Positions 15,222 through 63,353 of a stretch of 64,000 bases of DNA are shown here, one piece after another (positions within the stretch are counted from its first letter, which is position 1; every line of letters starts with the position of its first letter). The position numbers and the translations under genes were made by a program. Location of the stretch: the NCBI GenBank assembly GCA_947564645.1, contig CANOCU010000001.1:62001-126000 (forward strand), in the 5' to 3' direction. The notes under the pieces were generated by a model. The model was not told where the DNA came from and made no database searches. It saw only the letters and a list, made by a program, of their open reading frames with translations. This DNA is from an uncultured Lachnospiraceae bacterium (lineage in GTDB: Bacteria > Bacillota > Clostridia > Lachnospirales > Lachnospiraceae).

Positions 15222-15250
15222 TTGTCATCATAAGTCCTGCATGTTAAAAT
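15222..15250 (+). promoter_or_regulatory. Predicted promoter of the AAA-ATPase/nuclease gene
   Basis: TTGTCA (15222-15227) and TAAAAT (15245-15250) are separated by 17 bp, 39 bp before the start codon at 15289. An AAGGAGG ribosome binding site follows at about 11 nt from the ATG. Confidence 0.6.
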
Positions 15251-15288
15251 GAGATCATACGTCAAACAACAAGGAGGCAGGCTGACCT

Positions 15289-33900: not shown

Positions 33901-33955
33901 CTCATAAACCTCCTTCTGTCCTAACAATTGTTCCTCTTATCCTTGTATCATTTTA

Positions 33956-35806: not shown

Positions 35807-35854
35807 ATAGTCTCTCCTCCTCTTCCTATTCTTTCAATGCCCGGGTGTCCCGCC

Positions 35855-46090: not shown

Positions 46091-46934
46091 ATCTGGAAAT
46101 CTTCAGGAACAATTCATTGATCCCTTCGTAAAAACCGATCGTCACGACCGTCCTCTCTTCTCCGTTACCGGAAAAGACATATTTCTTATAGTAGGGCGTC
46201 GTCTCCAGAAGAGGATTGTCCGTCTCATAGACTTCGGGTGACGACAGGCCCATATAACTGCCCCACGCCTCTATCAGGGCGTCCGGATCGATCTCCTCCC
46301 ATTTCAGCTGCGCCCGCACATAGAACTCATAGATCTTACCGTCATCCGCATCGATATATGCGTCGATCAGCCGGTTCTCCTTATTGGCATTCTGCAGGCT
46401 GCCCGTCAGGCTCAGCTTCCAGACCGCCACATTGTTCCTCGGCTCCGGCACATCGATAGCAGAGTAAAGGGTCGCCTCATAAGCCTGCGCCCGGATCTCC
46501 CGGATCGCCTCCGGCAGAATACCCGCCTCCTTCAGCACAGAAAGCTCGTCATTCGCCGTCTCATAGATCTCCTCATCCGTGATCTCCTTGCCCGACGGGC
46601 CATTGTGATTGACCACGAAGGCATAAGTGCCCGTAAGTTCCTGGTAGACCGTCTCCGCAGCCCTGGTCTTCGCACTCTGTTCCGTCTCCGGCAGTGTCTG
46701 GGCGTTCAGGCACTGGGACAGAATATAGAGCTTCTCATTGCTGCTCAGCTGATACCGGTATCCTTCCCCGCCGGTCTCTTCCTCCCGGGTATGGATCTGG
46801 TTCAGGATTCCCTTGTCAGTGTAGGCGGCAAGCGCCTCCGGCCCCCAGACGGACAATATGACCACCAGCACGGTCAGCGCCAAAAGCGCCGGACTAAGAA
46901 ACCGCCGCCGGTTTTCAGGAATGGTCTTCTTCAT
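46089..46934 (-). CDS. Membrane-anchored extracytoplasmic protein of the two-component operon
   Basis: A 281-aa protein I do not recognise. It has a basic start, one membrane helix (about residues 14-36, possibly a signal peptide with AAY after it) and an acidic outer domain ending in FYEGINELFLKISR. The text NNVAVWKLSLTGSL and RLIDAYIDADDGKIYEFYV recalls PepSY-like or DUF-type beta domains. Its ATG overlaps the end of the histidine kinase gene by 20 bp, so it is translationally coupled and probably modulates or is a partner of the kinase at the outer face of the membrane. Confidence 0.72.
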   Translation of the reverse strand: MKKTIPENRRRFLSPALLALTVLVVILSVWGPEALAAYTDKGILNQIHTREEETGGEGYRYQLSSNEKLYILSQCLNAQTLPETEQSAKTRAAETVYQELTGTYAFVVNHNGPSGKEITDEEIYETANDELSVLKEAGILPEAIREIRAQAYEATLYSAIDVPEPRNNVAVWKLSLTGSLQNANKENRLIDAYIDADDGKIYEFYVRAQLKWEEIDPDALIEAWGSYMGLSSPEVYETDNPLLETTPYYKKYVFSGNGEERTVVTIGFYEGINELFLKISR

Positions 46935-48471
46935 GCAGCGCCTCCTTTCCCTCTTCCCATAGAAGGAAGCTCACCGTGGTTCCCTGTCCCGGCACGCTCT
47001 CGATCTTCAGACTGCTTTCGTGCAGCGACAGGATCTCCGCACAGAGAGCCAGTCCCAGACCCGCGCCGTTTCTGCTGCGCGCCCTGGATTTATCTACCAT
47101 ATAGAAGGCCTGGGTAACCTTAGCTATTTCCTCCTCCGGGATCCCGATCCCATAATCCCGCACACTGAACCGGTACGCCTTCATCCCCCGCTCTTCCTTC
47201 TCCGTCCTTTCCGCTTTCGTCCTCTCTACCCTTTCCGCCTTGCTTTTCTCCGGCTTATCCTTCGCTGCCCTTCTTTTCTCCATTCCTGTCTGTTCTGCCG
47301 GAGTCATTTCCACGACCTGTCCGCCAATCTCGATCCTGCTGCCCGGCTCCGATGCCTTACAGGCATTGTCGATCAGGTTCACCAGCACCGTCTGAATCAG
47401 ACTGGCGTCCGCGGTCACCACTCCCTGCTCATAGGCAAAGCAGAAGTCCATATTCTCCCTGGGAAGAAACAGATTCTGCAGATACTCAAACAGCGTCTTT
47501 ACGGCGACTTTCTGCAGCCTTGCCCCCTCCTTCTTTGTCACCATGATATCCAGGAGGCGCAGCGACATGGTCTCCAGGCGTTTACCCTCCGTATAGATAT
47601 AATTGGCAGAGCGGAAACTCTTCTCCTCATCCAGCTTCCGGGAACGCAGCATGTCCGCATACCCGATGATGGAGGTCAGCGGCGTCTTGAGCTCATGGGC
47701 AAAAGCGCCCACGAACTCTTCCCGCGACTGTACCTCCTCCTCCAGCTGGCCGATGGTCTTCTCCAGCTCCTCCGACATATGATTGAAGTCCTGTGTCAGC
47801 TGTCCCAGCTCATCGCTGCTGACCTGCCTGGCCCGGTATCCATAATCTCCGGCTGCCATCTCCTTCGTCGCCTTCATCAGCAGGCGGATCGGCTTCGTCA
47901 GCCTCGATGCGATAAAATGCATGATCACGATCCCCAGCGCCAGCATCAGCACCATCAGTCTGCGGTACACCGTAAATCCCGTGTCCCGCTCCGCAAACAC
48001 CTGTGACACATCCCTGAGCGTTTCCAGATATAAATCTCTGCCCAGCGCATTGACGCTGCTGCCCGTCTGGATATAGTAATGATCCCCCTGCCGGATCACA
48101 CGATAAGCATACCGGCTTTCCGCCGTCTGCTCCAACAGTGCGTCATCCGCCTCAAAACCGTCACTGGCATAGAGTACCCTCTGCTCCTCATCGGACAGCC
48201 GCAGCAGACGACCGCTTCCCTGCCCGCTCGCCTCCAGATTCGAAGCAATCTGTTCCACGGACCCGTCCTGCAGCAGATCATACTTCAACGGCACGTTTAA
48301 AGCCGCCGTCTGAAAGGCAAACCGCAGGATGCTGTTCTCGTCAAGCGCCTGTCCCACTTCCCGTTCCAGCGAAGTCCGAAACACATAATTGACGAAATAG
48401 AATCCGCTTAAGCCCAGTGTGATCGCTATGATGATCGTCGTCCAAAGCAATAACTTCCGGGAAAATTTCAT
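46915..48471 (-). CDS. Sensor histidine kinase
   Basis: A 518-aa two-component sensor. It has a membrane helix at about residues 8-30, an extracytoplasmic domain of roughly 135 residues, a second helix near 165-185, HAMP, and HisKA with FAHELKTPLTSIIGY (His about 259). The ATPase domain has DNACKAS (N box), DYGIGIP (G1) and GAGLGLAL (G2). Between N and G1 boxes there is a charged insert of about 30 residues built from KAERVER/TKAERTE repeats. The ATG at 48471 begins the membrane helix; an in-frame GTG at 48495 is possible. It pairs with the adjacent response regulator. Confidence 0.92.
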   Translation of the reverse strand: MKFSRKLLLWTTIIIAITLGLSGFYFVNYVFRTSLEREVGQALDENSILRFAFQTAALNVPLKYDLLQDGSVEQIASNLEASGQGSGRLLRLSDEEQRVLYASDGFEADDALLEQTAESRYAYRVIRQGDHYYIQTGSSVNALGRDLYLETLRDVSQVFAERDTGFTVYRRLMVLMLALGIVIMHFIASRLTKPIRLLMKATKEMAAGDYGYRARQVSSDELGQLTQDFNHMSEELEKTIGQLEEEVQSREEFVGAFAHELKTPLTSIIGYADMLRSRKLDEEKSFRSANYIYTEGKRLETMSLRLLDIMVTKKEGARLQKVAVKTLFEYLQNLFLPRENMDFCFAYEQGVVTADASLIQTVLVNLIDNACKASEPGSRIEIGGQVVEMTPAEQTGMEKRRAAKDKPEKSKAERVERTKAERTEKEERGMKAYRFSVRDYGIGIPEEEIAKVTQAFYMVDKSRARSRNGAGLGLALCAEILSLHESSLKIESVPGQGTTVSFLLWEEGKEALHEEDHS

Positions 48472-48553
48472 TTTCCGTATCCATATCCTTCCCACAGTGT
48501 GCAGTTTAGCATCATGACACTTCCCTGCATCAGCATTCCCAAGAGGATACCGG

Positions 48554-49207
48554 CTACAGCTCCAACCGGTATCCTACCTTATACACCGCCACCAGATTCT
48601 TCTCCCAGCCCAGCTTTCTCCGCAGCCGCTGCACATGAAGATCCAATGTCCTGCTGTTGGCAAAATACTCGTCGTCCCAGACCCGCTCATACAGATTCTC
48701 CCGGAATAACGCCACATTCCGGTTCTCCACAAAGAGCAGCATCAGATCGAATTCCTTACTGGTCAGCGGAACCGGGCTGCCGCAGCGCTTCACCCTTCTC
48801 GCTTCCACATCGATCTCCACATCGCCAAGCGTGATCACCTTGTCGGTCTTGTTGTACCTGCGCAGGACCGCTTCCACTCTGGCTAACAGTTCCGTCACGT
48901 CAAAAGGCTTGATCAGGTAATCGTCCGCCCCCAGCTTAAGTCCCTTTACCCGGTCCTTCACCTCATGCTTCGCCGAGATGAAGATCACCGGCACTTTATA
49001 GGGCCTGATATATTCCATCACATCATAGCCGTCCGCCCCCGGCAGCATGATATCCAGAAGCACCAGGTCAAAGGTGTTCTTCTCCACTGCCTCTATGGCC
49101 GCCAGCCCGTCCTGCACCGCCACGCAGGAATACCCGGCCGCCGACAAGTTCATGTCGATCAGGTCGCAGATCGGCTTCTCGTCATCCACTATCAATATCT
49201 TGATCAT
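48554..49207 (-). CDS. OmpR/PhoB family response regulator
   Basis: A 217-aa regulator. The receiver domain has DDE at residues 8-10, the phospho-acceptor Asp 52 in LLDIMLPG, the switch Ser in FISAK and Lys in IKPF. The C-terminal winged helix has TSKEFDLMLLF and SRTLDLHVQRLRRKLG. The ATG at 49207 is preferred because family proteins begin at M-x-K-I-L-I-V-D. It sits between the VCBS-like protein and the kinase in one operon. The 11-bp-period arrays at 46029 and 19005 are the type of site such proteins bind, so it is the leading candidate to control them. Confidence 0.93.
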   Translation of the reverse strand: MIKILIVDDEKPICDLIDMNLSAAGYSCVAVQDGLAAIEAVEKNTFDLVLLDIMLPGADGYDVMEYIRPYKVPVIFISAKHEVKDRVKGLKLGADDYLIKPFDVTELLARVEAVLRRYNKTDKVITLGDVEIDVEARRVKRCGSPVPLTSKEFDLMLLFVENRNVALFRENLYERVWDDEYFANSRTLDLHVQRLRRKLGWEKNLVAVYKVGYRLEL

Positions 49208-49212
49208 AATTC

Positions 49213-50349
49213 TTACGGACTCCATCCCCAATAGGCTCTCGCCCTGTCTACAAGCTCCGCCACCGTATCTTCCTCACTGCAGCGGATCTTCCTCTTCACT
49301 TCCGTATCCGTCTCAAAACCACTGGTCCTCTGGTAATAGATCTGATAATCACTCTCGATCACCACCTCGTCCAGACTTCCCTCATAACTGTACCGGGCAA
49401 ACACCAGCAGATCCTTCATGCCGTCCCCGTCGATATCCCGGCAGGTGATCCCCTTGAGCGCATACAGATTATCGTAATCTCCCATCGGCTGGAAGCTCCA
49501 GACAATATTGCCCTGCTCGTCCACCAGATAGATCATGAAGATCGAGAACTCCGCCACCGTGTAGCTGCCCGGCATCACTTCCAGATATCCCAGCTTCTCG
49601 AACTGCCTGAAATAATCCTGTTCCTTCGTGATGACAAAACCGTTCCTAAGCAGCTCCGCCTTCGTGGACGCCGTATAAAGGAACTCCGCGGAACGTCCGT
49701 CCCTGACATAGGCGACGATGCTCTCCGCACTCTTGTTCATCCCGAAGCGGTTGATCTTGTCCGAGAGCCTGTAATCCCGGTAGAACCCCTCTTTTCCCTG
49801 AAAAAGCACGTCCCCGACCTTATACTCCCTGCCGGCACACACACCCGTCTTATTCCGGCAGGAGACGATCAGCACGATATCCATTCGTCCGTCCCGGTTC
49901 AGATCCTGAAAGGAAACGGCACCGATCTCCACGATCGGCTGTTCCAGCGCTCCCACATTCCAGTTGTTGGCCGCCAGCTGATCCGTCCGGTACACGACGT
50001 TTCCGTCTTCCTTCGTAAAAAAAAGCGCCAGCCTCTGATACCGCTCCTCCATGGCAGGCACCAGAAGGATCTCTCCGTAACAGTCCGTCTCCAACGGGAA
50101 GATCTGATCCTCGATCACGGTAAACCCGCTGCCTCCGATCTCCTCCCGCCGTGCGATCCCCTGTAACCTTCCCTGGTACTCCTCATAGGCCTCCCGCACC
50201 TGACGGTCCGCCTCCTTTGCCGCCTCCGATGCCTCCGCCGTACTCTCCTTCGCCGCCGCAGGCATCCCCAGACAGGCACACAGCACTGCCACGGTCACTG
50301 ACACTCCTATGGATCTAAATACTGTACCTTTCTTATACAATGCCTGCAC
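49213..50349 (-). CDS. Secreted VCBS/FG-GAP-like protein at the head of the two-component operon
   Basis: A 378-aa exported protein. The signal peptide (about residues 12-33) ends in AAA/KES. The mature part carries two EF-hand-like calcium loops of the VCBS type: DLNRDGRMD (about residue 150) and DIDGDGMKD (about 310), within beta-rich repeats, plus a helical N-terminal segment (EADRQVREAYEEYQGRLQ). The start is a GTG at 50349 with GAGG 8 nt upstream; the stop abuts the response regulator start. It probably lies outside the membrane and could be a ligand or accessory of the kinase. A single CTGCATC lies upstream at 50383. Confidence 0.78.
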   Translation of the reverse strand: MQALYKKGTVFRSIGVSVTVAVLCACLGMPAAAKESTAEASEAAKEADRQVREAYEEYQGRLQGIARREEIGGSGFTVIEDQIFPLETDCYGEILLVPAMEERYQRLALFFTKEDGNVVYRTDQLAANNWNVGALEQPIVEIGAVSFQDLNRDGRMDIVLIVSCRNKTGVCAGREYKVGDVLFQGKEGFYRDYRLSDKINRFGMNKSAESIVAYVRDGRSAEFLYTASTKAELLRNGFVITKEQDYFRQFEKLGYLEVMPGSYTVAEFSIFMIYLVDEQGNIVWSFQPMGDYDNLYALKGITCRDIDGDGMKDLLVFARYSYEGSLDEVVIESDYQIYYQRTSGFETDTEVKRKIRCSEEDTVAELVDRARAYWGWSP

Positions 50350-50413: not shown

Positions 50414-51865
50414 CTACACATTGATCTTTGCCGTCACGCCAAGCAGCCCCTCGTTCTCCTTAAGGATCGGTTCCACGACTTCCTCCAGGAACTTCTCCAC
50501 CTGCAGCGGCGCACGCCCCACGTATTTCTTCGGATCCATCGTCTCTAAGAGCGCCTCCGCGGACAGATGAAAGACCGGATCGGCCGCGATCAGCTCCAAC
50601 AGATCATTCTCCTTCCCGTCCCGCTTCACATGGGCGCCGGCCTCCATGGACAGCTCTCTGATCCGCTCGTGCAGCTCCTGCCTGTTGCCGCCTGTCTTCA
50701 CCGCATCCATCATAATATTCTCCGTGGCCATGAAAGGCAGCTCGCTCATCAGCCGCTTCGTGATCACCTTGTCGTACACCACCAGTCCGTCCACCACATT
50801 CAGACACAGATCCAGGATCCCGTCCACCGCCAGAAAGGCCTCCGGGATCGACAGCCTCTTATTGGCGGAATCATCCAGCGTCCGCTCGAACCACTGGGTC
50901 GCCGAGGTGATGGCCGGATTCAGCGCATCCACCATCACGTAGCGGGACAGCGACGCGATCCGCTCACTCCGCATCGGATTGCGCTTATACGCCATGGCCG
51001 AGGATCCGATCTGGTTCTTCTCGAACGGCTCCTCCACTTCTTTTAAATGCTGCAGCAGCCTGATATCGTTGGACATCTTGTGAGCCGACGCCGCGATCCC
51101 GGCCAGTACATTGCACACCCTCGTGTCCACCTTGCGGGAATAAGTCTGTCCCGAGACCGGATAACATTTCTCGAATCCCATCTTCGCCGCGATCATGGGA
51201 TCGATCTTATCGATGGTCTCCTGATCCCCGTTAAACAGTTCCAGAAAAGAGGCCTGCGTACCGGTAGTCCCCTTAGATCCCAGCAGCTTCATCGTCGAGA
51301 GCACATAGTCGAGATCCTCCAGATCCAGACAGAATTCCTGCGCCCAGAGAGTCGCCCGCTTGCCCACCGTCGTAGGCTGGGCCGGCTGAAAATGCGTAAA
51401 GGCCAGGGTCGGCAGCTCCTTATACTCCCTTGCAAACTTCGCCAGCTTGTCGATCACATTCACTAGCTTCTTCTTCACCAGGCGAAGGGCCTGCGTCATC
51501 ACGATGATATCCGTATTGTCCCCCACATAACAGGAGGTCGCCCCCAGATGGATGATACCCGCCGCCTTCGGACACTGTTTGCCGTAAGCATAGACATGGC
51601 TCATCACATCATGCCGCACTTCCTTCTCCCGGGCTTTTGCCACATCGTAATTGATATCCTCCGCATGGGCTTTTAGTTCGTCGATCTGCTCCCTGGTGAT
51701 GACCGGCTGCCCGTTCTGGCTCAGTCCCAGCTCCATCTCCGTCTCCGCCAACGCGATCCACAGCTTCCTCCACGTCCGGAATTTCATATCCGGCGAGAAG
51801 ATATACTGCATCTCCTTACTAGCATACCGCTCCGACAACGGGCTCACATATCTGTCTGTACTCAT
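50414..51865 (-). CDS. purB: Adenylosuccinate lyase
   Basis: A 483-aa enzyme that cleaves SAICAR to AICAR and adenylosuccinate to AMP, both releasing fumarate, in purine synthesis. The fumarase/aspartase signature reads GSSAMAYKRNPMRSE (about residues 285-299), and HLGATSCYVGDNTD and TGTQASFLELF mark the other catalytic regions. Length fits the longer PurB group found in Clostridia and animals. GGAGG 9 nt upstream supports the ATG. It is unlinked to other pur genes here and follows the unknown four-gene cluster by 52 bp on the same strand, perhaps sharing its transcript. Confidence 0.95.
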   Translation of the reverse strand: MSTDRYVSPLSERYASKEMQYIFSPDMKFRTWRKLWIALAETEMELGLSQNGQPVITREQIDELKAHAEDINYDVAKAREKEVRHDVMSHVYAYGKQCPKAAGIIHLGATSCYVGDNTDIIVMTQALRLVKKKLVNVIDKLAKFAREYKELPTLAFTHFQPAQPTTVGKRATLWAQEFCLDLEDLDYVLSTMKLLGSKGTTGTQASFLELFNGDQETIDKIDPMIAAKMGFEKCYPVSGQTYSRKVDTRVCNVLAGIAASAHKMSNDIRLLQHLKEVEEPFEKNQIGSSAMAYKRNPMRSERIASLSRYVMVDALNPAITSATQWFERTLDDSANKRLSIPEAFLAVDGILDLCLNVVDGLVVYDKVITKRLMSELPFMATENIMMDAVKTGGNRQELHERIRELSMEAGAHVKRDGKENDLLELIAADPVFHLSAEALLETMDPKKYVGRAPLQVEKFLEEVVEPILKENEGLLGVTAKINV

Positions 51866-51917: not shown

Positions 51918-53117
51918 TCATGGCTGCGTACTTCGCTTCTCAATGTTCTTCTCGTACTCTTCCACAGCCTTCATGATCTCCCCCGCATACTGCGGATATT
52001 CTTCCACCAGTTCCTTGATCTCCTTCTGGGAACCGCCGGCCACAACCTCTCTGTTATAATCCATCCTGCGGCGCAGAGATTGTCTTCTGATGATCAGATT
52101 GTGCCTGATCTCCACCATTTCCTTACGATCCAGGATCGCTTCCGTCTGATGCAGCCATATAGCCGGGTCTTTGATCTGGTAACATTTCAACATCTGCAGC
52201 AGTTCACGCTCATTGTAATCCAGATCTCTCTCTGCTTTCCTGAGACTCTCGCGCTCTGCCTTCTCCGTCTGGTAATTTCTGAACAGATCCGTCAGTTCCT
52301 TTGCGCTGCCCACTCCGTATTTCATCTGCAGATAGTCCAGCAGATTCGTATTGTTGACATATCTGATCTTGACTTTATTCTGCAAAAGGATAATCTTATT
52401 GATCCCGTTCTCCACCCGGATCAGCTCGCGTCTTGCATCCAGATGCTTAATATAAATTATTGTGATCGCACCGGCTGCCACTGCCGCAGTCAGCAGATAT
52501 CCCACCCGGGTATCCATATCCAGGAAAAACTGCAATAACAAAAGAAGCAGCACGCATAATCCCAATGCCACGACACAGATCACAGCCATGCCCCGCGTAT
52601 CTGCGATCGTACCCATCACCTCGCTCTTACGATACAGATAGGCATGTTTCTCACCGTCCAAGCGTCCCAGATCCTGTTTGATCAGAATCTGATACTCTTC
52701 CGCCTCTCGTAATTTCTCATATGCCTCGTCCACCTCATCGGCAATCCGCTCCATAAGATGATATTTTTCATCGCTGATCCGGCGCGGCCGTTCCATGAAG
52801 TCCGCCTTGCTGTCCTGCAGCGCGGCGACTCTGCCGGCACATTCCTTCAACTGGTCGCTCTCTTCTTTTGGCAGCGCCTCAATCTCCTCCATATCTTTCA
52901 GATAAGACGTCACCATGTCATATTCATAAGTCAGATTTTCCAGTTCTTTTGTGGCGTCCGCCATCTTTTCCAGACAGCTTTTCACATAATCGTCCCGCTG
53001 CTCCTTGTTGTCATAGTCGACCGGGTGTTCGGCGCCAAGCTCCTCCCAGCTCTCCTCCTGGAACGCATCTGTGTCTTCCTTATGAAATTTGTTCTTTAGC
53101 TTTTTAAACCATCCCAT
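51918..53117 (-). CDS. Coiled-coil protein with two central membrane helices (cluster gene 4)
   Basis: A 399-aa protein I do not recognise. About residues 45-160 and 225-395 are strongly charged and helical with heptad-like text (predicted coiled coils), and between them lie two membrane segments (about 174-196 and 204-222) joined by a short loop. Both coils would therefore face the cytoplasm. The shape recalls membrane scaffolds. It is the last gene of a four-gene minus-strand cluster, 58 bp after the TPR gene. GGCGGAA precedes the ATG. Confidence 0.75.
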   Translation of the reverse strand: MGWFKKLKNKFHKEDTDAFQEESWEELGAEHPVDYDNKEQRDDYVKSCLEKMADATKELENLTYEYDMVTSYLKDMEEIEALPKEESDQLKECAGRVAALQDSKADFMERPRRISDEKYHLMERIADEVDEAYEKLREAEEYQILIKQDLGRLDGEKHAYLYRKSEVMGTIADTRGMAVICVVALGLCVLLLLLLQFFLDMDTRVGYLLTAAVAAGAITIIYIKHLDARRELIRVENGINKIILLQNKVKIRYVNNTNLLDYLQMKYGVGSAKELTDLFRNYQTEKAERESLRKAERDLDYNERELLQMLKCYQIKDPAIWLHQTEAILDRKEMVEIRHNLIIRRQSLRRRMDYNREVVAGGSQKEIKELVEEYPQYAGEIMKAVEEYEKNIEKRSTQP

Positions 53118-53175
53118 TATTATTCCGCCTGTCCAAATCTTTTCTTTAAACTATTCTCACCAAGCCGCCTTTTCA

Positions 53176-54021
53176 TTATGATACATATTCTCTGTACCGC
53201 TCCTTAAGTCCATCAGTCAGTTTCTCGATCTCCTGATAATACAGCGTATCATTTCCGGCAGTACTGTTACCCTCCTCCTTGAAAACCTGGAGCGTAAAAA
53301 GCATACGGTTCTCATCCGTAGCCTCAAACTGCCCGGATGCCTGTTCGATCCTCCGCTCTACCTGCAGGGATGCATTGTGATATTCCGGATGATCTCCAAT
53401 AAAGGCAATATAATCCTTATCCTGACTGGACAGCCGCAGGGAGGTCAGATACAATGTCAGGCTCTCCTTTGCCCCGTCTGCCTCATAGGCCTGCTTAAAC
53501 CAGTCTGCAGCCTGCTTAAACATAAACAGCCTGGCATAGACCGCCCCGATATTGTGCAGAACCTGTGCCATAAGCGTCCTGTCCGCCTCTTTGATCTGTG
53601 TAAGCAGCGCATAATACTGTTTCAGTGCACCATAGTATCTGCCGCTTTGCAGCATATAATCCGCTTTGGATTTCCAACGTTCCCAGGGGCTTAACCCTTC
53701 GTTTCCCCTGATGATCTCCTCTGTCCTTGCTATGACATCCGTTGGATACAGATTCACATATTCCAAAATGATCCCTGCAAAAGCCGCAATGGATCCGTTT
53801 TGATTCAGCAGGGAATACAATGCATGTGCCAGCTGATTCAGCCCGCACTCCTCATCCAGCCACTGGATCAGCTCCCGCTGCATGATCTCCTCATCCAACA
53901 TCTCCGCTTTCTCCACAAGCAGATAACACAGTTCCTCAACAGAGTATAAATTGATATAAAATTTCTCCACAAAATAAGGTTTTCCGGCATATCTGCCGGT
54001 ACCCAGTATGATCTGTCCCAT
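53176..54021 (-). CDS. TPR-like cytoplasmic protein (cluster gene 3)
   Basis: A 281-aa helical protein. The N-terminal part has GKPYFVEKFYINLYSVEELCYLL, which looks like a family-specific module, and residues 130-190 contain tetratricopeptide-like repeats (YYGALKQYYALL, VLHNIGAVYARLFMFKQAADWFKQAYE). No membrane segment is seen. I chose the ATG at 54021 because AAAGGA lies 9 nt before it; one 10 codons earlier (54051) is possible. TPR proteins bind partner proteins, and its place 46 bp after the Hsp70-like gene suggests an adaptor for it. Function unknown. Confidence 0.75.
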   Translation of the reverse strand: MGQIILGTGRYAGKPYFVEKFYINLYSVEELCYLLVEKAEMLDEEIMQRELIQWLDEECGLNQLAHALYSLLNQNGSIAAFAGIILEYVNLYPTDVIARTEEIIRGNEGLSPWERWKSKADYMLQSGRYYGALKQYYALLTQIKEADRTLMAQVLHNIGAVYARLFMFKQAADWFKQAYEADGAKESLTLYLTSLRLSSQDKDYIAFIGDHPEYHNASLQVERRIEQASGQFEATDENRMLFTLQVFKEEGNSTAGNDTLYYQEIEKLTDGLKERYREYVS

Positions 54022-54067
54022 TCTCTTTTGTCCTTTATAGAGCGATGCCATGCTCTCTCATGAATCC

Positions 54068-55381
54068 TTATGGCACCTGGAAGGTTTCCTCCCATACGCT
54101 GCCGCCTGTGGCAAACAACTCACCAAATCCAAGATCGGTCACTTTCACAACCACCATATTCGATGCGCTCATCTTTATTTCCATATGATATCTTGTAAAA
54201 GGCCCTCTGCCTTCGCCTGCATCTGACAACAGGATCCTTCTTGTCTCCACATTCTTGCCGTTAAGCGGCGTGATCACCAGGGAGATCTCCCTCTCCTGCG
54301 CAAGCAGAAAATCACATTCCTTGTACAATTCGTACCAGTTCTCACCGGCATCCAGGAGTGCATAGTAAGACTCCTTTCCCTGCCGCATCACATGGATGCC
54401 GATATTGGCCTTCAACATGTCCCTGCCAAGAAAAATATGACTCTTACCCACTTCACTCGGTTCCAACTTCTCCAACAATCCATAACAGGCGCCCCTGCTA
54501 AACAGGTTATTTCCTTGAAAAACTCTCCCGTTATGGCAGAGAAACTGCAGGGATCTTTCCTGCCATCCGCTCTTAAATCCGTCTCCCAGAAGATAAACGG
54601 ATGAGACAAATCTTGACTCGCACATCTTCTGCAGGATTCCCAGGAATCTCTCGTCCGCCAGGCGGCAGGCATCCTGTCTGATCTTCTCGTCCTCCGCCTG
54701 ATCGGGGATCACAAGCGTCTCATACATCTGCTCTTCGATCAGAACCACCACCGGTGTGGTGCGCTTATTACACTCCATTCGATAAATCTTCAACCGCATA
54801 CCGTCATGTTCACAGGCTATCACCTGGTGATACCACAACTCTGCCGGCTGATGCAGGATAAAAGAATAGAAGCTCTCCGTATGCCCCTGGAAATAGATAT
54901 GCGGCGTTCTGAGGCCAAGATTGGCGGACACCAGGGACAAAACCTCCACCATCCTGTCGTCCAGCTCATCTGCCGTAAACATGATCGCATCGATCTTCTC
55001 GACAGGCGCTATGAAGTTCATCAACGCCATACTGCGCTTAATGAACAGGGTAAGCAGCGCCACCGGATCAAAAACCTCCCCATCCAGTTCGATCTCTTCA
55101 CCCGCTCTTGCCAGCGCAGGAATATGATCCACCGGAAACATATCCTCCTGCCCGGCATTCCTGACGGCATCCTTGCCGTAGAACCATTGGTTCGCACCTT
55201 TGCGCTTACATAACATCGTCGGTATATTGTATTGCTTCGTCCCCACCACCGTCGCCACCGTATCCACATCTTCCTGTCCGTAAATACAGTAGCTGATCTG
55301 AGAATACCGCTCCCCGATATCATAGCCGACCAACACGCTTCCTTTATGCAGTTTGTTCCCTTCCCTGTGCTCCAAGAACAT
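54068..55381 (-). CDS. Hsp70/actin-fold ATPase-like protein (DUF5716-like; cluster gene 2)
   Basis: A 437-aa protein. VGYDIGERYSQISY (about residues 18-31) has the position and shape of the phosphate-1 loop of Hsp70/actin proteins. VYLLGDGF (about 252-259) followed by LFSRGACYGLLE (about 280-291) matches the adenosine motif and the GAA helix that ends the ATPase domain. The last 100 residues (ISLVITPLNGKNVETRRILL) are beta-rich like an Hsp70 substrate domain. Key Thr/Lys residues of DnaK are not conserved, so ATP hydrolysis is uncertain. Lachnospiraceae relatives are filed as DUF5716. It is not a standard DnaK. Confidence 0.78.
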   Translation of the reverse strand: MFLEHREGNKLHKGSVLVGYDIGERYSQISYCIYGQEDVDTVATVVGTKQYNIPTMLCKRKGANQWFYGKDAVRNAGQEDMFPVDHIPALARAGEEIELDGEVFDPVALLTLFIKRSMALMNFIAPVEKIDAIMFTADELDDRMVEVLSLVSANLGLRTPHIYFQGHTESFYSFILHQPAELWYHQVIACEHDGMRLKIYRMECNKRTTPVVVLIEEQMYETLVIPDQAEDEKIRQDACRLADERFLGILQKMCESRFVSSVYLLGDGFKSGWQERSLQFLCHNGRVFQGNNLFSRGACYGLLEKLEPSEVGKSHIFLGRDMLKANIGIHVMRQGKESYYALLDAGENWYELYKECDFLLAQEREISLVITPLNGKNVETRRILLSDAGEGRGPFTRYHMEIKMSASNMVVVKVTDLGFGELFATGGSVWEETFQVP

Positions 55382-55479
55382 CCTTGCCCGTCTCCCTCTC
55401 TTCCGTATCTGATGCGCCCTCTGAAGGCTCTCTACGCCGCATTATACTCATCATACACAGCCTGCCTGGGCCTTCCATA

Positions 55480-58400
55480 TTATCGGAGCCTGAACAGACT
55501 GTCCACCACAAATTCCTGCCTGTAATATTGCAGCAGCAGGCTATTCACCGTATCATAATCATGCAGTGTCTTCCCGATCATAATGTCATTTAGCAGGGTA
55601 AAGCGGCTTTCGAAATCATCCTGCTCCTGATCATCTGCGGTTATGCTGTTGCTGCGGGTAGGCCGGGAACCGTTCTCTGACTCCTCCGTGATATAATACT
55701 GCAGCCTTTCCCCGAAAAACAGGATAAACTCCTTAACACAGATACCTGCAAACATATCCCGCATCTCTTCCCTGCAATACTCCTTCTCTGCACTCCCTTC
55801 ATCCTGGATCATATAGTGAATGACTGCCCGGCAGCCGGGCTTTACTCTGTATTCTATCAATGTCTTATCCTGATATTCATCCATTTGGGGAATATAGCCC
55901 TGATAGTCCTTATAAAGCGGCAGCACAATCCGCTCTGACAGCAGATCCCTCAGGAAAGCACAGCATGTCTGTCTGATCCTGTCATCCTGCTCATGTCTGT
56001 TCTCTGCGTAATACTGCAGAAAAGCCATCTTGCACACCCGGTGCATAAAAGCGTCCTTCTGATACAGCTGCATAACGCCCCGGAAAATGTAGGGATCCAC
56101 GATCTGTTCCTTGACGACATAATCATAACAGCACTGGGACAAAAACGCCATTCTCAGATTCTCGTTGCCCATTTCTTTGCTGTATGTCCTGAAGATCGCG
56201 ATCTTGTCTCCCACATGAGCGCCCGTATAAAGCATCTGCTCAAGCATACGCTCACACAATTCATAAGTATTCACACCGAAAGACTCCGCCGTCTGCCATA
56301 CATCCCGCATATCCTTGATACTTCCGGAGTAATAGCGGATCAGATAATCGAGTACATTCTCATCGTACTTTCCCTTTCTGACCACATAGCATAATACGCC
56401 TGTCATTACGGGATCTTCCTGCATCTGCTCCGCATCCAGCAATCTGCTGCACAGCTGCAGCAATACCTTGGCATCCATACCGTACGGCCCGAAATACTGT
56501 ACCCACTGCCATGCTTCCTCATACATTCCACGGACTACCATACAGCGGACCACTTCCTTACGGTCCTTCTTCAGAATATGCCACGGTTTTAAAGTAAGCA
56601 GGAAAGCATCCAGTTCCCGCATACGGTCTTTCGCATAATAGAACCGTACCAACATCATACGGATTTCCTGCTTCATGGATTCCGCTATCCTGTCAGACTG
56701 AGAAAGCAGCATAAAAAGATCTACATTATCCTCCTGCACCGCGAGCATCTTCTGATACTCGAAGCAGGTATATACCGCATACCAGAGATTATCCCGTACA
56801 AAAGGTGCGATCATAAGCGCCAGTCTGGCCGGACCACACAGCATTTCGTCCTGATACGCCACGCTTACCGTGTATCGGTTGCCCGTTCTGTCTCCTAACA
56901 GGATCCTGCACTCGGAATCATAGACCGGCAGCTGTGCCCTGCCGGAAATCACCGGATAGACACTCTCTTTGACCCCGTAAGGATACACGGCGATCACCTC
57001 CGTGATCCTGTCCGACTCCACCCTGACCTCTTTCATAAAGAGAAGGGTTACCAGCTGCGCTGCGCTCTCCTCGTCGATCATCGGCAGACTAATCACATTA
57101 CGATATAAATAGGCCAGATCCCTGTTGATCCTCCCGTACCGGATCTGCTCGGCAACAAATCTCTCGATCGCCGCCATGTAGTTTACATAAATCTCCGTAA
57201 TCTCCGCTCTGTGCTGATGCACATAAGCATACAGATACGCCGTGATCTCATAATCCAGATTACTCTGATATGCAAAATACATCAGTACAATCTTAGGCAG
57301 CGGCTCGCTGTAATCCAGAGGAGACGACATCATATAATATTCGTACAGACGTGTGATTCGAAGATTCTGCTCCACGCCGGCCTTATACCATTCAAAATAC
57401 TCATGTCCCTTGCAATTTCCCTTGATCAGCAGAGTGCAGATCGCGTGCAGGATGTCATTGCCCGGCCGCCTCGCATAACAGCCCTTTAAAATGCGCAGGA
57501 TACTTTGCGAATACGTCTTTTCTTTCTGTGCCAGATAGACGAACTGCAGGACGATCTCTTCCTTCATAAGATCGTTTCTGACGGCAAAGGAAAGAATCTG
57601 CTGTTCAAACAGATCCAGTTTCATGAGCATCGCCGGGTTCATGCACAGCAGATGCCAGGCCTCTATGTAAATAACCGGAGACGTACAATGATATCTCGAC
57701 TGCTCTTCCAGCAGTTCCCATTTCCTGACAGGACTCTTAAGATAATCATCCGACAGATACATGAGCAGCCAGGCGATCCTCCAGTTTCCCCTGTTACGGA
57801 CATAGATATCGGCGACCGCCTCCGCAACCTCATCCACATAACTGTCTTCCCTGCTGTACAGAGTTGTCAGATACAGATAATAACACCACAGCTCCGGACA
57901 GGCTTCTCTCTGCTCATACACACGTTCCTCGTATTTCTCGATCATCCACTTGGCTTCGTTATACCGCTCTTCCGTGAGCATGATCTGTGCCTGGAACAGC
58001 TTCAGCGCCACATCCTTATCATCAAGCTCGAGCAGCCTGTTCAACAGCCTGTTAGTCTCTGTCATCCATGTCCTGGTACTGATCCTCTTAAGACGGAAGG
58101 TCTGATAATACTCCATCAATTCCACCGTCAGCGCCTTTTTCTCCCTGTGTCGTTCGAAAGTCCTCCTGCCTGTCACCTGCCGTATCACTGTGACAGGGAT
58201 CGTGATCACCCGATTGTCAAGGATCAGCTTGATGGATCCGTAATTATTTCCGCCATGCAATTTTTCATGGTTTACATAATAGTACAATCTATAAATATTC
58301 CCCAGAAAAGAGGAATCCGTCACGTCATCTTCCTCCACGGACAGAAATTCTCCTTCCGTCTCGACCCGGAAGTGCGCATATCCCCAGCCATTCCGATTCA

Positions 58401-59064
58401 CCACCAGCGTATAACGCATCTCCTCTGGCGGATTCTCCAGTCTGATCTCCGTTTCCTCCGGAATATATTCCACCGGCCTTTTCTTATTGATCTCCAACAG
58501 AAATTCTTCTACGTTATGTTCGTTCCCCCGAACCGCACTAAGCCCCAGATATGAGGCATAATACTGACGGTCGTTGGATTTGAATACCCCGGCAAATTCC
58601 TCCGAATAGAACAGACGGACCGCCTCTTCCCAGTTGCTTTTGGCCAGATTGGTAAAATGAAACAAATTCTTGATATTACCCAGACTGGAGACGATCGTCT
58701 CTGCCATGATCACGACCGTAAAGAGAATATAATATTCCCCCTGATTGGAAATGATATGAAACGCACCCTTGATCTCTTCCCCCGGCTCCGCCCCATGAGC
58801 ATCAAAACGATAAAAAATCTCATCCTGCGCGCCGCTGAATTTGCGGCTTACACATTCCATTCTCAGATCAGAAGATATCACATGCCCTTCCGTCACCTTC
58901 CCTGCCGGACCATAAACCGTAAAGCTGCCTTCCGCCACCGTATCCGCGTGTACTTCCAGCGAAAGCCTCTGACAGGAAAAATCTAATGAGCCGTTCTCAT
59001 GATTAAATTTGCCGTTTAAGATTTCTTCTATGACCTGCCGCACGTTTCTTATCTGCCTTTCCAT
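55480..59064 (-). CDS. Giant DUF5717-like protein: beta-sandwich head and long helical solenoid (cluster gene 1)
   Basis: A 1194-aa protein without signal peptide or clear membrane helix. Residues 1-315 look like two or three beta-sandwich modules (LEVHADTVAEGSFTVYG, YTLVVNRNGWGYAHFRVE, IKLILDNRVITIPVTVI). The rest is helical and repetitive (RLLELDDKDVALKLFQAQIMLTEERYNEAKWMI and similar), fitting a TPR-like solenoid, then a mixed C-terminal region near 950-1194. It resembles DUF5717 proteins of Lachnospiraceae, whose role is unknown. The ATG at 59064 is favoured because a consensus promoter overlaps the region just upstream. It heads the four-gene cluster. Confidence 0.8.
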   Translation of the reverse strand: MERQIRNVRQVIEEILNGKFNHENGSLDFSCQRLSLEVHADTVAEGSFTVYGPAGKVTEGHVISSDLRMECVSRKFSGAQDEIFYRFDAHGAEPGEEIKGAFHIISNQGEYYILFTVVIMAETIVSSLGNIKNLFHFTNLAKSNWEEAVRLFYSEEFAGVFKSNDRQYYASYLGLSAVRGNEHNVEEFLLEINKKRPVEYIPEETEIRLENPPEEMRYTLVVNRNGWGYAHFRVETEGEFLSVEEDDVTDSSFLGNIYRLYYYVNHEKLHGGNNYGSIKLILDNRVITIPVTVIRQVTGRRTFERHREKKALTVELMEYYQTFRLKRISTRTWMTETNRLLNRLLELDDKDVALKLFQAQIMLTEERYNEAKWMIEKYEERVYEQREACPELWCYYLYLTTLYSREDSYVDEVAEAVADIYVRNRGNWRIAWLLMYLSDDYLKSPVRKWELLEEQSRYHCTSPVIYIEAWHLLCMNPAMLMKLDLFEQQILSFAVRNDLMKEEIVLQFVYLAQKEKTYSQSILRILKGCYARRPGNDILHAICTLLIKGNCKGHEYFEWYKAGVEQNLRITRLYEYYMMSSPLDYSEPLPKIVLMYFAYQSNLDYEITAYLYAYVHQHRAEITEIYVNYMAAIERFVAEQIRYGRINRDLAYLYRNVISLPMIDEESAAQLVTLLFMKEVRVESDRITEVIAVYPYGVKESVYPVISGRAQLPVYDSECRILLGDRTGNRYTVSVAYQDEMLCGPARLALMIAPFVRDNLWYAVYTCFEYQKMLAVQEDNVDLFMLLSQSDRIAESMKQEIRMMLVRFYYAKDRMRELDAFLLTLKPWHILKKDRKEVVRCMVVRGMYEEAWQWVQYFGPYGMDAKVLLQLCSRLLDAEQMQEDPVMTGVLCYVVRKGKYDENVLDYLIRYYSGSIKDMRDVWQTAESFGVNTYELCERMLEQMLYTGAHVGDKIAIFRTYSKEMGNENLRMAFLSQCCYDYVVKEQIVDPYIFRGVMQLYQKDAFMHRVCKMAFLQYYAENRHEQDDRIRQTCCAFLRDLLSERIVLPLYKDYQGYIPQMDEYQDKTLIEYRVKPGCRAVIHYMIQDEGSAEKEYCREEMRDMFAGICVKEFILFFGERLQYYITEESENGSRPTRSNSITADDQEQDDFESRFTLLNDIMIGKTLHDYDTVNSLLLQYYRQEFVVDSLFRLR

Positions 59065-59076
59065 ATAATTACTTAA

Positions 59077-59106
59077 ATTATACCATTGATAATACCGCCT
59101 GTGCAA
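59077..59106 (-). promoter_or_regulatory. Predicted promoter of the four-gene cluster, very close to the start codon
   Basis: On the minus strand TTGCAC (59101-59106) and TATAAT (59077-59082) are 18 bp apart. The -10 ends only 12 bp before the ATG at 59064, so the transcript would have a leader of about 5-7 nt and no room for a ribosome binding site. Confidence 0.6.
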
Positions 59107-59175
59107 CACGAAATCCGGGAACTATTCTCTCCACGCCACATATCATAGTTAAGAAGAAACGATTAGAGGTATTTT

Positions 59176-60441
59176 ATGGAAAAGCCCGTTTTAAGAAGCG
59201 CACAGATTGATAACATTGATCAAGGGCAGCTGCAGATCAATGTCACTGCCAACGTAGGCATGATCCCGATCCAGAATGCAAGCATTACGATTTCCTATAC
59301 CGGAGAACCGGACAGCACACTGGAGACCCTGACCACCGATTCCTCAGGACAGACGGAATCGGTAACGCTCAATGCACCTCCTCTCGAATACAGCCTCACG
59401 CCAAATTCCCCCATGCCTTATTCGGAATATACCCTGACAGTCACCGCGCCGGGATATGAACCTGTTACCGTCTCCGGTGTCGAAGTTCTGCCGGAGGTTA
59501 CCGCTATGCAGAATATTGAGATGGTGCCCACCGAGACATCACAGGAAGAGTCCGAGACGATCGTGATACCGGATCATACGCTTTATGGAGACTATCCGCC
59601 CAAGATTCCGGAAGATGAGATCAAACCTATGGATGAATCCGGCGAGATCGTCCTTAGCCGTGTCGTGATCCCGGAGTATATTATCGTACATGACGGCGTG
59701 CCTTCTGATTCTACTGCAGGCAATTACTATGTTCGCTATCGGGATTATATCAAGAATGTAGTTTCCTCGGAGATCTATGCTACCTGGCCGGAAAATGCCA
59801 TCTATGCCAATACACTGGCGATCATGTCATTTACGTTGAACCGGGTATATACGGAATGGTATCGGAGTAAAGGATACAATTTTACCATCACCTCCTCCAC
59901 CGCCTACGATCAAAAATGGATCTATGGAAGAAATGTCTATGCAAATGTTGACAGACTGGTAGACTCCATCTTCGCCAACTATCTCTCCCGTCCCGGTGTG
60001 AGACAGCCGATCTTCACCTCCTACTGTGACGGTAAGAATGTAACCTGCAACGGCTTAAGCCAATGGGGCTCCAAATACCTGGGAGACGAAGGCTACACCC
60101 CTATTGAGATCATACGTTATTACTATGGCAGCGACATGTATATCAACACTGCCGTAGCCGTATCCGGCGTACCTTCCTCCTGGCCCGGCTATAACTTAAG
60201 TGTCGGAGCTTCCGGCGGCAAAGTACTGCAGATCCAACAACAGCTCAACCGGATCGCCCAGAACTATCCCGCCATCCCGAAGATCACGGCAGACGGTATC
60301 TACGGTCCCCGCACCGCTGACGCCGTACGCGTATTCCAACGCGTGTTCAATCTGCCCCAGTCGGGTATCGTAGACTATCCTACCTGGTATAAGATCTCCG
60401 AGGTCTACGTGGGCGTGAGCCGGATCGCGGAGCCGGGATAA
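59176..60441 (+). CDS. SpoIID/LytB-like protein with C-terminal peptidoglycan-binding domain
   Basis: A 421-aa protein in three parts. Residues 10-120 are an immunoglobulin-like or carboxypeptidase-regulatory-like beta domain (IQNASITISYTGEPD). Residues 165-320 match the SpoIID/amidase-enhancer region: YIKNVVSSEIYATWPENAIYAN, TSSTAYDQKW, YCDGKNVTCNGLSQWGSKYL and EIIRYYYG. Residues 335-410 are a PG_binding_1 domain (VLQIQQQLNRI, ITADGIYGPRTADAVRVFQ). No signal peptide is visible, which is odd for a wall-acting protein. GAGG 7 nt before the ATG. It diverges from the DUF5717-like gene across 111 bp. Confidence 0.85.
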   Translation: MEKPVLRSAQIDNIDQGQLQINVTANVGMIPIQNASITISYTGEPDSTLETLTTDSSGQTESVTLNAPPLEYSLTPNSPMPYSEYTLTVTAPGYEPVTVSGVEVLPEVTAMQNIEMVPTETSQEESETIVIPDHTLYGDYPPKIPEDEIKPMDESGEIVLSRVVIPEYIIVHDGVPSDSTAGNYYVRYRDYIKNVVSSEIYATWPENAIYANTLAIMSFTLNRVYTEWYRSKGYNFTITSSTAYDQKWIYGRNVYANVDRLVDSIFANYLSRPGVRQPIFTSYCDGKNVTCNGLSQWGSKYLGDEGYTPIEIIRYYYGSDMYINTAVAVSGVPSSWPGYNLSVGASGGKVLQIQQQLNRIAQNYPAIPKITADGIYGPRTADAVRVFQRVFNLPQSGIVDYPTWYKISEVYVGVSRIAEPG

Positions 60442-61009: not shown

Positions 61010-63256
61010 CTATTTCGTTAACAGCATCATGATCTCATTGCTTCTGGCAACGAACTTCGTCATCGCCTCCGGCTCAAGCGGCGCCTGCTGCAGCAGCGCC
61101 AGATCGTAGAGCTGTTCGCAGATCATCTTCACGTTCTCGCCGTCCTGATGCTCTAATACATACTGTACAAGCGGATGGTTGGCGTTCAGGATCAGTGTCT
61201 CACCCTCCTTGCCAAAGCCCATGCCCATATCCATCCCCTGCATGGAGTACATCTTCATCATATCCTGCATCCTGCGGGACTCCTCCGACAGTGTGATCAT
61301 GGAAGAAATCTTCTTGTTCTTCAGCTTCTCGATCTTCACCTTGATGGCATCCTTCTTGAGCACCTTCTTCATCAGCCCTGCAACTTCTTCTGCCTGCTTC
61401 TCCATCTGCTTCTCAGCCTTCTTGGAGGTCTTGGCTTTGAACACGTCCGTCAGGTCCGCATCGATCCTCTGGAACTTGATGCCTTCATTCTTCATCTCCA
61501 GCTGGGAGACGAAAGGCTGGTCGATATTGTGCGTCAGGATCACGGCATCCATCTTGGCAGCCTTGAACATATTGATATACTGACTCTGCTGTTTCTCATC
61601 CGTCACGTAGTAGATGACTTTCTCTTTCTTCTCCTCTTCGGCTTCCTCTAAGTCCTCCTCGTCCTCATCCTCGACGACTTCGGCCTCCACTTTCTCGCCG
61701 TTCTCGTCCACCGCACCGGACTCTGCTGTCTCTGTCTGTCCGTCCGTCGTCTCGCTGTCGGCTTCCGCCTTCCCGCCGTTCTCATCGATCCCGGCTTCCA
61801 CCTTCTCACCGCTCTCAACGATCCCGGCTTCCGCTTTCTCACCGCTCTCATCCACGATCTCGGCTTCCACTTTCTCACCGTTCTCGTCTACGGCGCTCTC
61901 GCCGTCCTTCACCTCGTCCGGATCAACCTTGTTGACTTCCAGGCACTCTGGCAGTGTCAGATAGACACCCTCCAGGTTCTTAAAGAGGATATAATCCGTC
62001 ATCTTCTCGCAGAACTTATCGTCCTTTAAGCAGCCGAACTTGATGAACGGGCTGATGTCATCCCAGTATTTCTCGTACTCTTCCTTCTCTGTCTTGCACA
62101 TGCCGGACAGCTTGTCTGCCACCTTCTTGGTGATGTACTCGCTGATCTTCTTCACGAAACCGTCGTTCTGCAGCGCGCTTCTGGACACGTTCAGCGGCAG
62201 ATCCGGGCAGTCGATCACACCTTTTAACAAAAGAAGGAACTCGGGAATGACTTCCTTGATATTGTCCGCGATAAATACCTGGTTATTATACAGCTTGATG
62301 GTTCCCTCGATGGATTCATACTCCATGTTGATCTTCGGGAAATACAGGATACCCTTCATATTAAAAGGATAATCCATATTCAGGTGGATCCAGAACAGCG
62401 GCTCCTTGTAATCCTGGAATACCTTGCGGTAAAACTCCAGATACTCCTCCTTCGTGCACTCATTAGGGTGCTTCGTCCAGAGAGGATGGGTCTCATTCAA
62501 AAGCTCGGGACGCTTCTTTATCTTGAACTTCTGCTCGTCCTCCTCCTTCTCCTTCTTGATCTCCTCCACGACCTCATCCGTGTCCAGCTTCTCGTCTGCC
62601 GTAACCGTCTGTGTCTCCGTGGTGTTGGCCTTGGAGAGATAGATCTCCGTTGGCATGAAGGAACAGTATTTCTTGATGACCTCTCTCGCCTTATACTCAT
62701 TGCAGAACTCCAGGCAGTCCTCATTGATCAGCAGCGTGATCTCGGTACCGACCTCGGTTCTCGTGCCTTCCTCCATATCGAATTCCGTGCCGCCGTCGCA
62801 CTCCCAATGTACCGGGCTGGCGCCTTCCTGCCAGGACAGAGAGTCGATATGCACCTCATCCGCCACCATAAACGCCGAATAGAATCCCAGACCGAAATGT
62901 CCGATGATCTGATCCTCATTGGCCTTATCCTTATACTTCTCGATGAAATCCGTCGCGCCGGAAAAAGCGATCTGGTTGATATACTCCTCCACCTCGTCCG
63001 CCGTCATACCGATACCGTTATCAATAAACTTAAGCGTCTTCTCCTCCGGATTCACGATCACCTGGATCTGCGGCTTATAACCGTCCGGCAGGGCATATTC
63101 CCCCATCATATCCAGTTTCTTCAACTTCGTGATCGCATCACAGCCGTTGGAGATCAGTTCCCGGAAGAAGATATCATGGTCGGAATACAACCATTTCTTG
63201 ATGATCGGGAAAATATTGTCGCTGTTAATTGATAAATTACCATGCTTTGCTGCCAT
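61010..63256 (-). CDS. htpG: Molecular chaperone HtpG (bacterial HSP90) with a long acidic insert
   Basis: A 748-aa ATP-dependent chaperone, about 120 residues longer than the usual 620-630. The N-terminal GHKL ATPase has FFRELISNGCDAITKL, FIDNGIGMTADEV and GHFGLGFYSAF; the middle domain has WIHLNMDYPFN and LPLNVSRSALQND. Two extra segments stand out: a charged stretch near 225-265 and an acidic repeat insert near 445-545 built on DENGEKVEAE-like units. The start at 63256 is chosen because the promoter lies downstream of a longer in-frame Met at 63346; AAAGGA precedes the ATG. A CIRCE element indicates HrcA control. Confidence 0.93.
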   Translation of the reverse strand: MAAKHGNLSINSDNIFPIIKKWLYSDHDIFFRELISNGCDAITKLKKLDMMGEYALPDGYKPQIQVIVNPEEKTLKFIDNGIGMTADEVEEYINQIAFSGATDFIEKYKDKANEDQIIGHFGLGFYSAFMVADEVHIDSLSWQEGASPVHWECDGGTEFDMEEGTRTEVGTEITLLINEDCLEFCNEYKAREVIKKYCSFMPTEIYLSKANTTETQTVTADEKLDTDEVVEEIKKEKEEDEQKFKIKKRPELLNETHPLWTKHPNECTKEEYLEFYRKVFQDYKEPLFWIHLNMDYPFNMKGILYFPKINMEYESIEGTIKLYNNQVFIADNIKEVIPEFLLLLKGVIDCPDLPLNVSRSALQNDGFVKKISEYITKKVADKLSGMCKTEKEEYEKYWDDISPFIKFGCLKDDKFCEKMTDYILFKNLEGVYLTLPECLEVNKVDPDEVKDGESAVDENGEKVEAEIVDESGEKAEAGIVESGEKVEAGIDENGGKAEADSETTDGQTETAESGAVDENGEKVEAEVVEDEDEEDLEEAEEEKKEKVIYYVTDEKQQSQYINMFKAAKMDAVILTHNIDQPFVSQLEMKNEGIKFQRIDADLTDVFKAKTSKKAEKQMEKQAEEVAGLMKKVLKKDAIKVKIEKLKNKKISSMITLSEESRRMQDMMKMYSMQGMDMGMGFGKEGETLILNANHPLVQYVLEHQDGENVKMICEQLYDLALLQQAPLEPEAMTKFVARSNEIMMLLTK

Positions 63257-63324
63257 TTTCTCACGTTCCTTTCTGATCCTGTTAAATTTCAATTTCACAT
63301 AGATTCTTTCCTTGTCTGCTAGAT

Positions 63325-63353
63325 AGTTTAATACGCTCTTACGCATAAGTCAA
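63325..63353 (-). promoter_or_regulatory. Predicted promoter of htpG
   Basis: On the minus strand TTGACT (63348-63353) and TAAACT (63325-63330) are 17 bp apart. Transcription would start near 63318, giving a leader of about 60 nt. Confidence 0.75.

Follow-up and report, generated by a model that had tools for sequence, protein, structure and literature searches.

The described gene cluster nearest to the one reported here is the GTPase-centred HSP70/GrpE theme of the GAP1-N2 systems (Kaur et al. 2020; PMC7159879). Hsp70 proteins have also been tied to bacterial motility: DnaK1-DnaJ3-GrpE is reported to serve type IV pilus motility in cyanobacteria (PMC9239167), and the Hsp70 homologues StkA and SglK are reported to affect social motility in Myxococcus (PMC4319316, PMC8265645). 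Here we characterize a four-gene cluster, encoding a DUF5717 protein, a DUF5716 protein, a TPR protein and a membrane coiled-coil protein (CC), in a 64,000-nucleotide stretch of contig CANOCU010000001.1 from an uncultured Lachnospiraceae bacterium (the window, whose positions serve as coordinates throughout; its genome is termed G000). The comparisons below make it very probable that this set is the reduced form of a larger Hsp70/GrpE cluster. Literature searches returned no work on DUF5716 or DUF5717, a single match being due to chance, and no paper on this cluster was among the matches listed.

The four-gene cluster and its pseudo-Hsp70

Open reading frame listing of the window confirmed all four minus-strand genes within 51918-59109, as reported in a first-pass annotation that had also described them as tightly spaced; of the gaps given there (58, 46 and 98 bp), the middle one is 16 bp when counted from the first ATG. 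Pfam matches placed the two largest products in families that have names and no function, as previously noted: the DUF5717 protein (55480..59064, minus strand) matched DUF5717_N (E 8e-299, 993.7 bits) and DUF5717 (E 6e-98, 328.1 bits), exceeding the curated cut-off of 25, and the 437-amino-acid (aa) DUF5716 protein (54068..55381, minus strand) matched DUF5716_C (E 8e-95, 317.6 bits), exceeding the cut-off of 34.7.

Within DUF5716 we found the remains of an Hsp70. The AlphaFold model (predicted local distance difference test [pLDDT] 88.2, predicted template modelling score [pTM] 0.85) comprised a remnant nucleotide-binding domain (approximately residues 15 to 320) and a substrate-binding beta domain (approximately residues 325 to 435), and VIA-align comparisons of this predicted structure recovered the Hsp70 superfamily fold, an actin-like nucleotide-binding domain joined to a beta substrate-binding domain. 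Those fold comparisons included structures of yeast Ssz1, an atypical Hsp70 that belongs to the ribosome-associated complex. Profile comparisons likewise pointed to Hsp70 descent, matching the DUF5716 profile to the Hsp70-B family (E 1.9e-13) and to the DUF5716 proteins of the expanded clusters described below (E 1.6e-40), of which the one at locus L083 matches PF00012 (E 5e-11). The window protein itself gave no match to PF00012 at E up to 1, and its search against PDB profiles returned no Hsp70. Our motif table showed that its phosphate-1, phosphate-2 and adenosine motifs are gone, together with subdomain IIB, whose columns are 99 to 100% gap in 120 reduced DUF5716 proteins. In 29 expanded DUF5716 proteins the ATP motifs are degenerate and an IIB-sized segment is still there, whereas the motifs are 96 to 100% kept in most columns of the Hsp70-A (n = 30), Hsp70-B (n = 26) and Hsp70-VWA (n = 25) families. 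The best reading of these sequences is that the window DUF5716 protein is a non-catalytic pseudo-Hsp70. The first-pass designation of this protein as an ATPase is thus not supported, and with the motifs and IIB lost, nothing in the present window set is recognizable as a motor.

The DUF5717 protein measures 1,194 aa from the ATG at 59064 and 1,209 aa from a GTG at 59109; its true start is likely the GTG at 59043 (1,187 aa), because several near relatives are 1,187 aa long and alignments begin there. Its AlphaFold model (mean pLDDT 87, pTM 0.59) showed two PapD/ASH-like beta-sandwiches followed by an alpha-solenoid with beta inserts, in agreement with the earlier description of a 1,194-aa beta-head/solenoid protein. 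The head (58180..58995, minus strand; approximately residues 24 to 295 of the 1,194-aa form) adopted an ASH/MSP/PapD-like beta-sandwich fold in VIA-align comparisons of the predicted structure, and its profile matched the separate HEAD family with an E value of 4.3e-33. Against PDB profiles, the head gave weak matches only (best E 0.019), and DUF5717 gave none at E up to 1. The solenoid (55873..58167, minus strand; approximately residues 300 to 1064, with a beta insert at approximately 677 to 741) was delimited from the secondary structure of the model and from Pfam matches of the solenoid protein at L083.

The TPR protein (53176..54051, minus strand; 291 aa) matched TPR_12 at E 7e-7, slightly below the curated cut-off. 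Gene fusions pair the head with the solenoid and the pseudo-Hsp70 with the TPR protein; the latter fusion, found in five other genomes, supports the TPR protein as a partner of DUF5716, as had been proposed. The CC protein (51918..53117, minus strand; 399 aa) has, by hydropathy, one hairpin-like hydrophobic stretch at residues 167 to 226 (52440-52619), and its family numbers 47 members among the loci compared. At one of these (L099:4261-7113) the CC frame runs on into a 950-aa open frame, the continuation of which we take to be glutamyl-tRNA synthetase.

We then compared the locus across genomes. Of 80 named Lachnospiraceae loci, 72 had precisely the order DUF5717-DUF5716-TPR-CC. These loci include Kineothrix alysoides, Parablautia muri and Parablautia intestinalis and, as the best 80 of 523 candidates, are close to the window; at least three of the other eight (L199, L201 and L206) stop at a contig end. 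Among 46 further family loci, 39 carried all four genes in order, five lacked CC, one had DUF5717-TPR-CC and one DUF5717-DUF5716 only. Such conservation rules out chance and bears out the predicted co-conservation of the four genes. DUF5716 was present in 148 of 150 family genomes, as one copy in the same place. In a sample of 196 genomes from the order, DUF5716 occurred in 92, DUF5717 in 93 and both in 90, including 35 of 35 from the family itself. A class-wide sample yielded DUF5717 in 10 of 243 genomes, each of them from this family; kinship was listed for 20 of the 233 negative genomes.

Probable reduction from an expanded Hsp70/GrpE cluster

Families of the order other than Lachnospiraceae carry these genes within a larger cluster that can reach nine members: a head, a solenoid, Hsp70-A, a GrpE-domain protein, DUF5716, Hsp70-B, Hsp70-VWA (an Hsp70 with a fused VWA domain), TPR and a membrane coiled coil. 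At L083, Pfam analysis of the nine proteins gave TMCC (a membrane coiled-coil family distinct from CC), head, solenoid, Hsp70-A, a coiled coil ending in GrpE, DUF5716, Hsp70-B, Hsp70-VWA (VWA domain, E 9e-9) and TPR. The GrpE domain was recognized at E values from 2.6e-11 (L083) to 1.4e-14 and matched the solved Geobacillus GrpE 4ani in a PDB profile search (E 1.2e-4). Of 34 expanded-type loci, 24 had the core order solenoid, Hsp70-A, GrpE, DUF5716, Hsp70-B, Hsp70-VWA, the others being partial or cut, and in seven of the 34 a CC of the window type closes the cluster. Head and solenoid are separate genes in most expanded clusters. Across families, the main matches of the three Hsp70s are 53 to 79% identical to those of L083, and the solenoid, head, GrpE protein and DUF5716 mostly 20 to 45%. 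No match to Hsp70-A turned up when the phylum was searched at E up to 1e-150 (0 of 299), a result that shows little since the search had no positive control.

A TMCC gene precedes the head gene at nine expanded-type loci, including L083:15328-16650. The L083 protein matched ZorA, JetC and LmuB in the PADLOC library (E 3e-5 to 8e-4) within the coiled coil, and we treated these matches as an effect of composition. Outside Lachnospiraceae, flagellin accompanies the expanded clusters (56 of 60 cluster-bearing genomes, compared with 50 of 101 cluster-free ones), a pattern that is strongly clade-structured and to which we give no weight for that reason. In one family (f11), genera with and without the cluster seem to separate almost exactly, and the association there may represent a single event.

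The direction of change was read from an rpoB tree of 29 genomes with two outgroups. The reduced form made up one clade (100/100) whose sister was an expanded genome, G015 (99/98), and both outgroups branched among expanded genomes. Cluster-free genomes were scattered, which suggests losses. The window genome contains two long rpoB-like genes (contigs C102 and C92), one of which was used in the tree; the pair reflects either a second copy or assembly contamination. An aminotransferase-type gene (Aminotran_1_2) accompanies the cluster at 25 loci, of which 14 are expanded and 11 come from Lachnospiraceae, pointing to the same chromosomal site for both forms. The surviving genes keep the expanded order minus two internal blocks, Hsp70-A with GrpE and Hsp70-B with Hsp70-VWA, and none of these four families was found in the 46 further family loci. 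Because the reduced form is nested within the expanded one, two deletions would have taken out the GrpE protein along with all three Hsp70s whose motifs are intact. The sole clear Hsp70 of the window genome is a partial frame at a contig end, which we read as DnaK, and there was no frame near 690 aa, the length of Hsp70-VWA, among the family Hsp70 matches listed. The opposite polarity, in which the small cluster is older and the others gained Hsp70s and GrpE, is conceivable in principle through repeated gains; we consider it very improbable, given the nesting on rpoB and the IIB-sized segment that is kept in expanded DUF5716 and gone in the reduced form.

The membrane gene, flagellin and competing explanations

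Tying of the set to the membrane by the coiled-coil protein, as the first-pass annotation envisaged, is only partly borne out, the CC gene being absent from many family genomes that have the other three. We compared its presence with that of flagellin (a PF00669 match, as distinct from motility seen in cells; marginal in G063, E 7.5e-4), which occurs in 75 of 150 family genomes, against 148 of 150 for DUF5716. The comparison covered 109 of the 148 DUF5716-positive family genomes (80 by score order, 18 picked for long frames, low scores or single contigs, and 11 already examined) and further genomes from the order sample. Left out were G742, G747, G800 and G804, all flagellin-negative, in which contig ends cut the loci, as well as G038 (L102; DUF5716 frame not called), G205 (contig end), G172 and 39 other genomes. 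At 94 resolved loci, 36 had both CC and flagellin, none CC only, 10 flagellin only and 48 neither; with 32 more genomes (n = 126) the counts were 63, 0, 11 and 52. The 58 CC-negative loci among the 94 had unrelated genes after TPR, with the exception of G848. Phylogenetically independent pairs on two DUF5716 trees were concordant in 10 cases and discordant in one (two-sided sign test, approximately 0.012). Models of dependent evolution of CC and flagellin were preferred over independent ones (likelihood ratio 61.8 with G848 scored as CC-negative, 46.8 as CC-positive). A link between CC and motility is therefore somewhat favoured, as a correlation.

We propose the following account. An older dedicated machine would have comprised three motif-intact Hsp70s, one of them fused to VWA, a GrpE-type protein, the pseudo-Hsp70, head, solenoid and TPR proteins, and often a membrane coiled coil. 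On the branch to Lachnospiraceae, two internal blocks, Hsp70-A/GrpE and Hsp70-B/Hsp70-VWA, would have been deleted, the head fused to the solenoid, and subdomain IIB shed from the pseudo-Hsp70. What remains may be a non-catalytic scaffold in which the pseudo-Hsp70 holds a partner or client without ATP, docked on the TPR protein, as the fusions suggest, and presumably on the DUF5717 solenoid. In flagellated species, CC could fasten this scaffold to the membrane, where it might assist in assembling, positioning or maintaining some envelope structure that is required alongside flagella. For the proposal as a whole, a retained core of an Hsp70 machine acting as a non-catalytic scaffold and linked to the membrane in flagellated species, we see even chances at best, and we infer its client and all physical contacts. 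The more specific idea, that an Hsp70 machine was turned into a permanent ATP-free scaffold organising the building or placing of flagella or their envelope base in gut Lachnospiraceae, its pseudo-Hsp70 having served three active Hsp70s and then outlasted them throughout the family, is doubtful.

Several observations weigh against the proposal. In the dependent model of CC and flagellin the rates reached their bounds, and the trees used are DUF5716 gene trees. CC was sought only next to the cluster and not elsewhere in the genomes. The flagellin-negative genome G848 encodes, after TPR, a coiled coil of 316 aa that has a hydrophobic hairpin and escapes recognition by the CC profile; counting it as CC changes the tally to 63 with both, 1 with CC only, 11 with flagellin only and 51 with neither. 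G039 (L140), from outside the family, has the CC gene and no flagellin that we could find in a genome 93% complete, and the membrane gene is missing from 11 genomes that have flagellin. Whether flagellin is there or not, the three-gene core persists, and its function is therefore not motility alone. As to the deletions, other family genomes hold second and third Hsp70s of 558 to 651 aa, and genome-wide loss of Hsp70-A and Hsp70-B is shown for G000 only, in an assembly 91% complete.

Of the competing explanations, a general envelope or cell-shape scaffold, with CC and flagella lost together through a change of lifestyle or shape (for example, from rod to coccus), is a possible though less than likely one. 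The presence of the core in flagellin-negative genomes and the dispensability of the membrane gene in 11 flagellated ones speak for it; mere genome shrinkage does not explain the joint loss, since G845 (7.4 Mb) lacks both CC and flagellin and G859 (1.8 Mb) has both. The picture first put forward, of a membrane-tied and active ATPase of the Hsp70 type that uses the solenoid and TPR proteins as adaptors, has in its favour the Hsp70 fold of DUF5716 and partner genes that are indeed as described; we rejected it as most improbable because the ATP motifs and IIB are lost and neither PF00012 nor PDB profile searches recover an Hsp70.

A conflict (defence-like) system akin to the GTPase-centred HSP70/GrpE clusters is brought to mind by the parts of such systems, which are reported to have HSP70, GrpE, beta-repeat proteins fused to DnaJ/TPR and membrane components (PMC7159879). 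The cluster is, however, single copy at a constant site in nearly all family genomes, a core-gene pattern; none of the four window proteins matched the PADLOC library, which holds described systems only, at E up to 0.01; and no GTPase or GAP1 domain was found among the nine L083 proteins. On the distribution and the PADLOC result we set this reading aside as improbable. The SpoIID-like neighbour in the window recommends a sporulation module, but that neighbour is not conserved, and Spo0A is distributed otherwise: 31 of 95 cluster-bearing genomes of the order (21 of 35 in Lachnospiraceae) have no Spo0A-like match better than 1e-30, and strong matches are found in 86 of the 101 genomes without the cluster. 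The Spo0A distribution led us to reject this explanation, which we find hardly credible.

Lachnospiraceae are a dominant gut family, and the set is in nearly all family genomes examined. If the proposed account of a reduced, non-catalytic scaffold is true, the cluster would offer a rare case of evolution readable step by step, in which a multi-Hsp70 machine sheds its ATPases and the pseudoenzyme stays; it would also give DUF5716 and DUF5717 a testable function and flagellated Firmicutes a candidate new component.

Neighbouring genes and comparison with known systems

Upstream of the cluster, a promoter-like site on the minus strand (TGCACA-17-TATAAT, with TG before the second hexamer; 59077..59105) has weak evidence behind it, such sites being found 12 times against 12.8 expected by chance. 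The divergent SpoIID-like/peptidoglycan-binding gene (59176..60441, plus strand), reported by the first-pass annotation, is present (PG_binding_1, E 1e-14; SpoIID, E 1e-5), but it lies outside the conserved unit and is no fixed neighbour: a divergent SpoIID-like gene occurs within two genes of the cluster at 30 of the 80 named and 10 of the 46 further family loci. Beyond it lies htpG (Hsp90; 61010-63346), whose product has a repetitive acidic insert; this gene is upstream of DUF5717 at 39 of the 80 named loci and 10 of the 46 others, shares its strand in each of these 49 cases and adjoins it directly in L091, L122 and L125. Downstream by 52 bp is purB (50414..51865, minus strand; Pfam Lyase_1 and ADSL_C), possibly co-transcribed with the cluster and a frequent downstream neighbour in family loci, as are genes that we take from their sequences to be purF-like and purC-like. 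The sole Rfam match was a tRNA-Val. Elsewhere in the window (12954-16869, 20826-25046, 31948-38929 and 46915-49231) are GH31, GH2, GH20 and GH2 glycoside hydrolases, an Lhr-type helicase, an AAA-ATPase/PDDEXK protein and a two-component pair.

Among known systems, a complex like the ribosome-associated one of Ssz1 is not matched, as no DnaJ was found in the nine L083 or four window proteins, the genome elsewhere not having been searched. The GAP1-N2 systems and the expanded clusters alike combine an HSP70 with GrpE, which the window set does not. GAP1-N2 systems are reported also to contain a second HSP70 without a peptide-binding domain, a beta-repeat protein fused to DnaJ/TPR and membrane parts, and to be built on a GTPase and GAP1 (PMC7159879); no such domains were found in the nine L083 or four window proteins, in a scan that took in one expanded locus in full (L083) and five proteins of L085. 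The present cluster adds an Hsp70-VWA and the DUF5716 pseudo-Hsp70, and is confined to one order in our samples; its window version is devoid of an active Hsp70. CnuD/CnuCD of the CoCoNuT systems are reported to be similarly Hsp70-like, with degenerate nucleotide motifs, little ATPase activity expected and helical repeats, but are fused or linked to McrBC-type GTPases and nucleases (PMC11090510), of which there are none in the window or L083 proteins. DnaK1-DnaJ3-GrpE resembles the cluster in that a motility apparatus has an Hsp70/GrpE system of its own; it differs in serving type IV pili rather than flagella and in having an active DnaK and a J-protein, and is not known to include DUF5716 or DUF5717 (PMC9239167). 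StkA and SglK are reported as extra Hsp70-like proteins with motility phenotypes, in another organism and pathway. The present set is best placed as an Hsp70 system reduced to its pseudo-Hsp70, a variant of Hsp70 systems already described.

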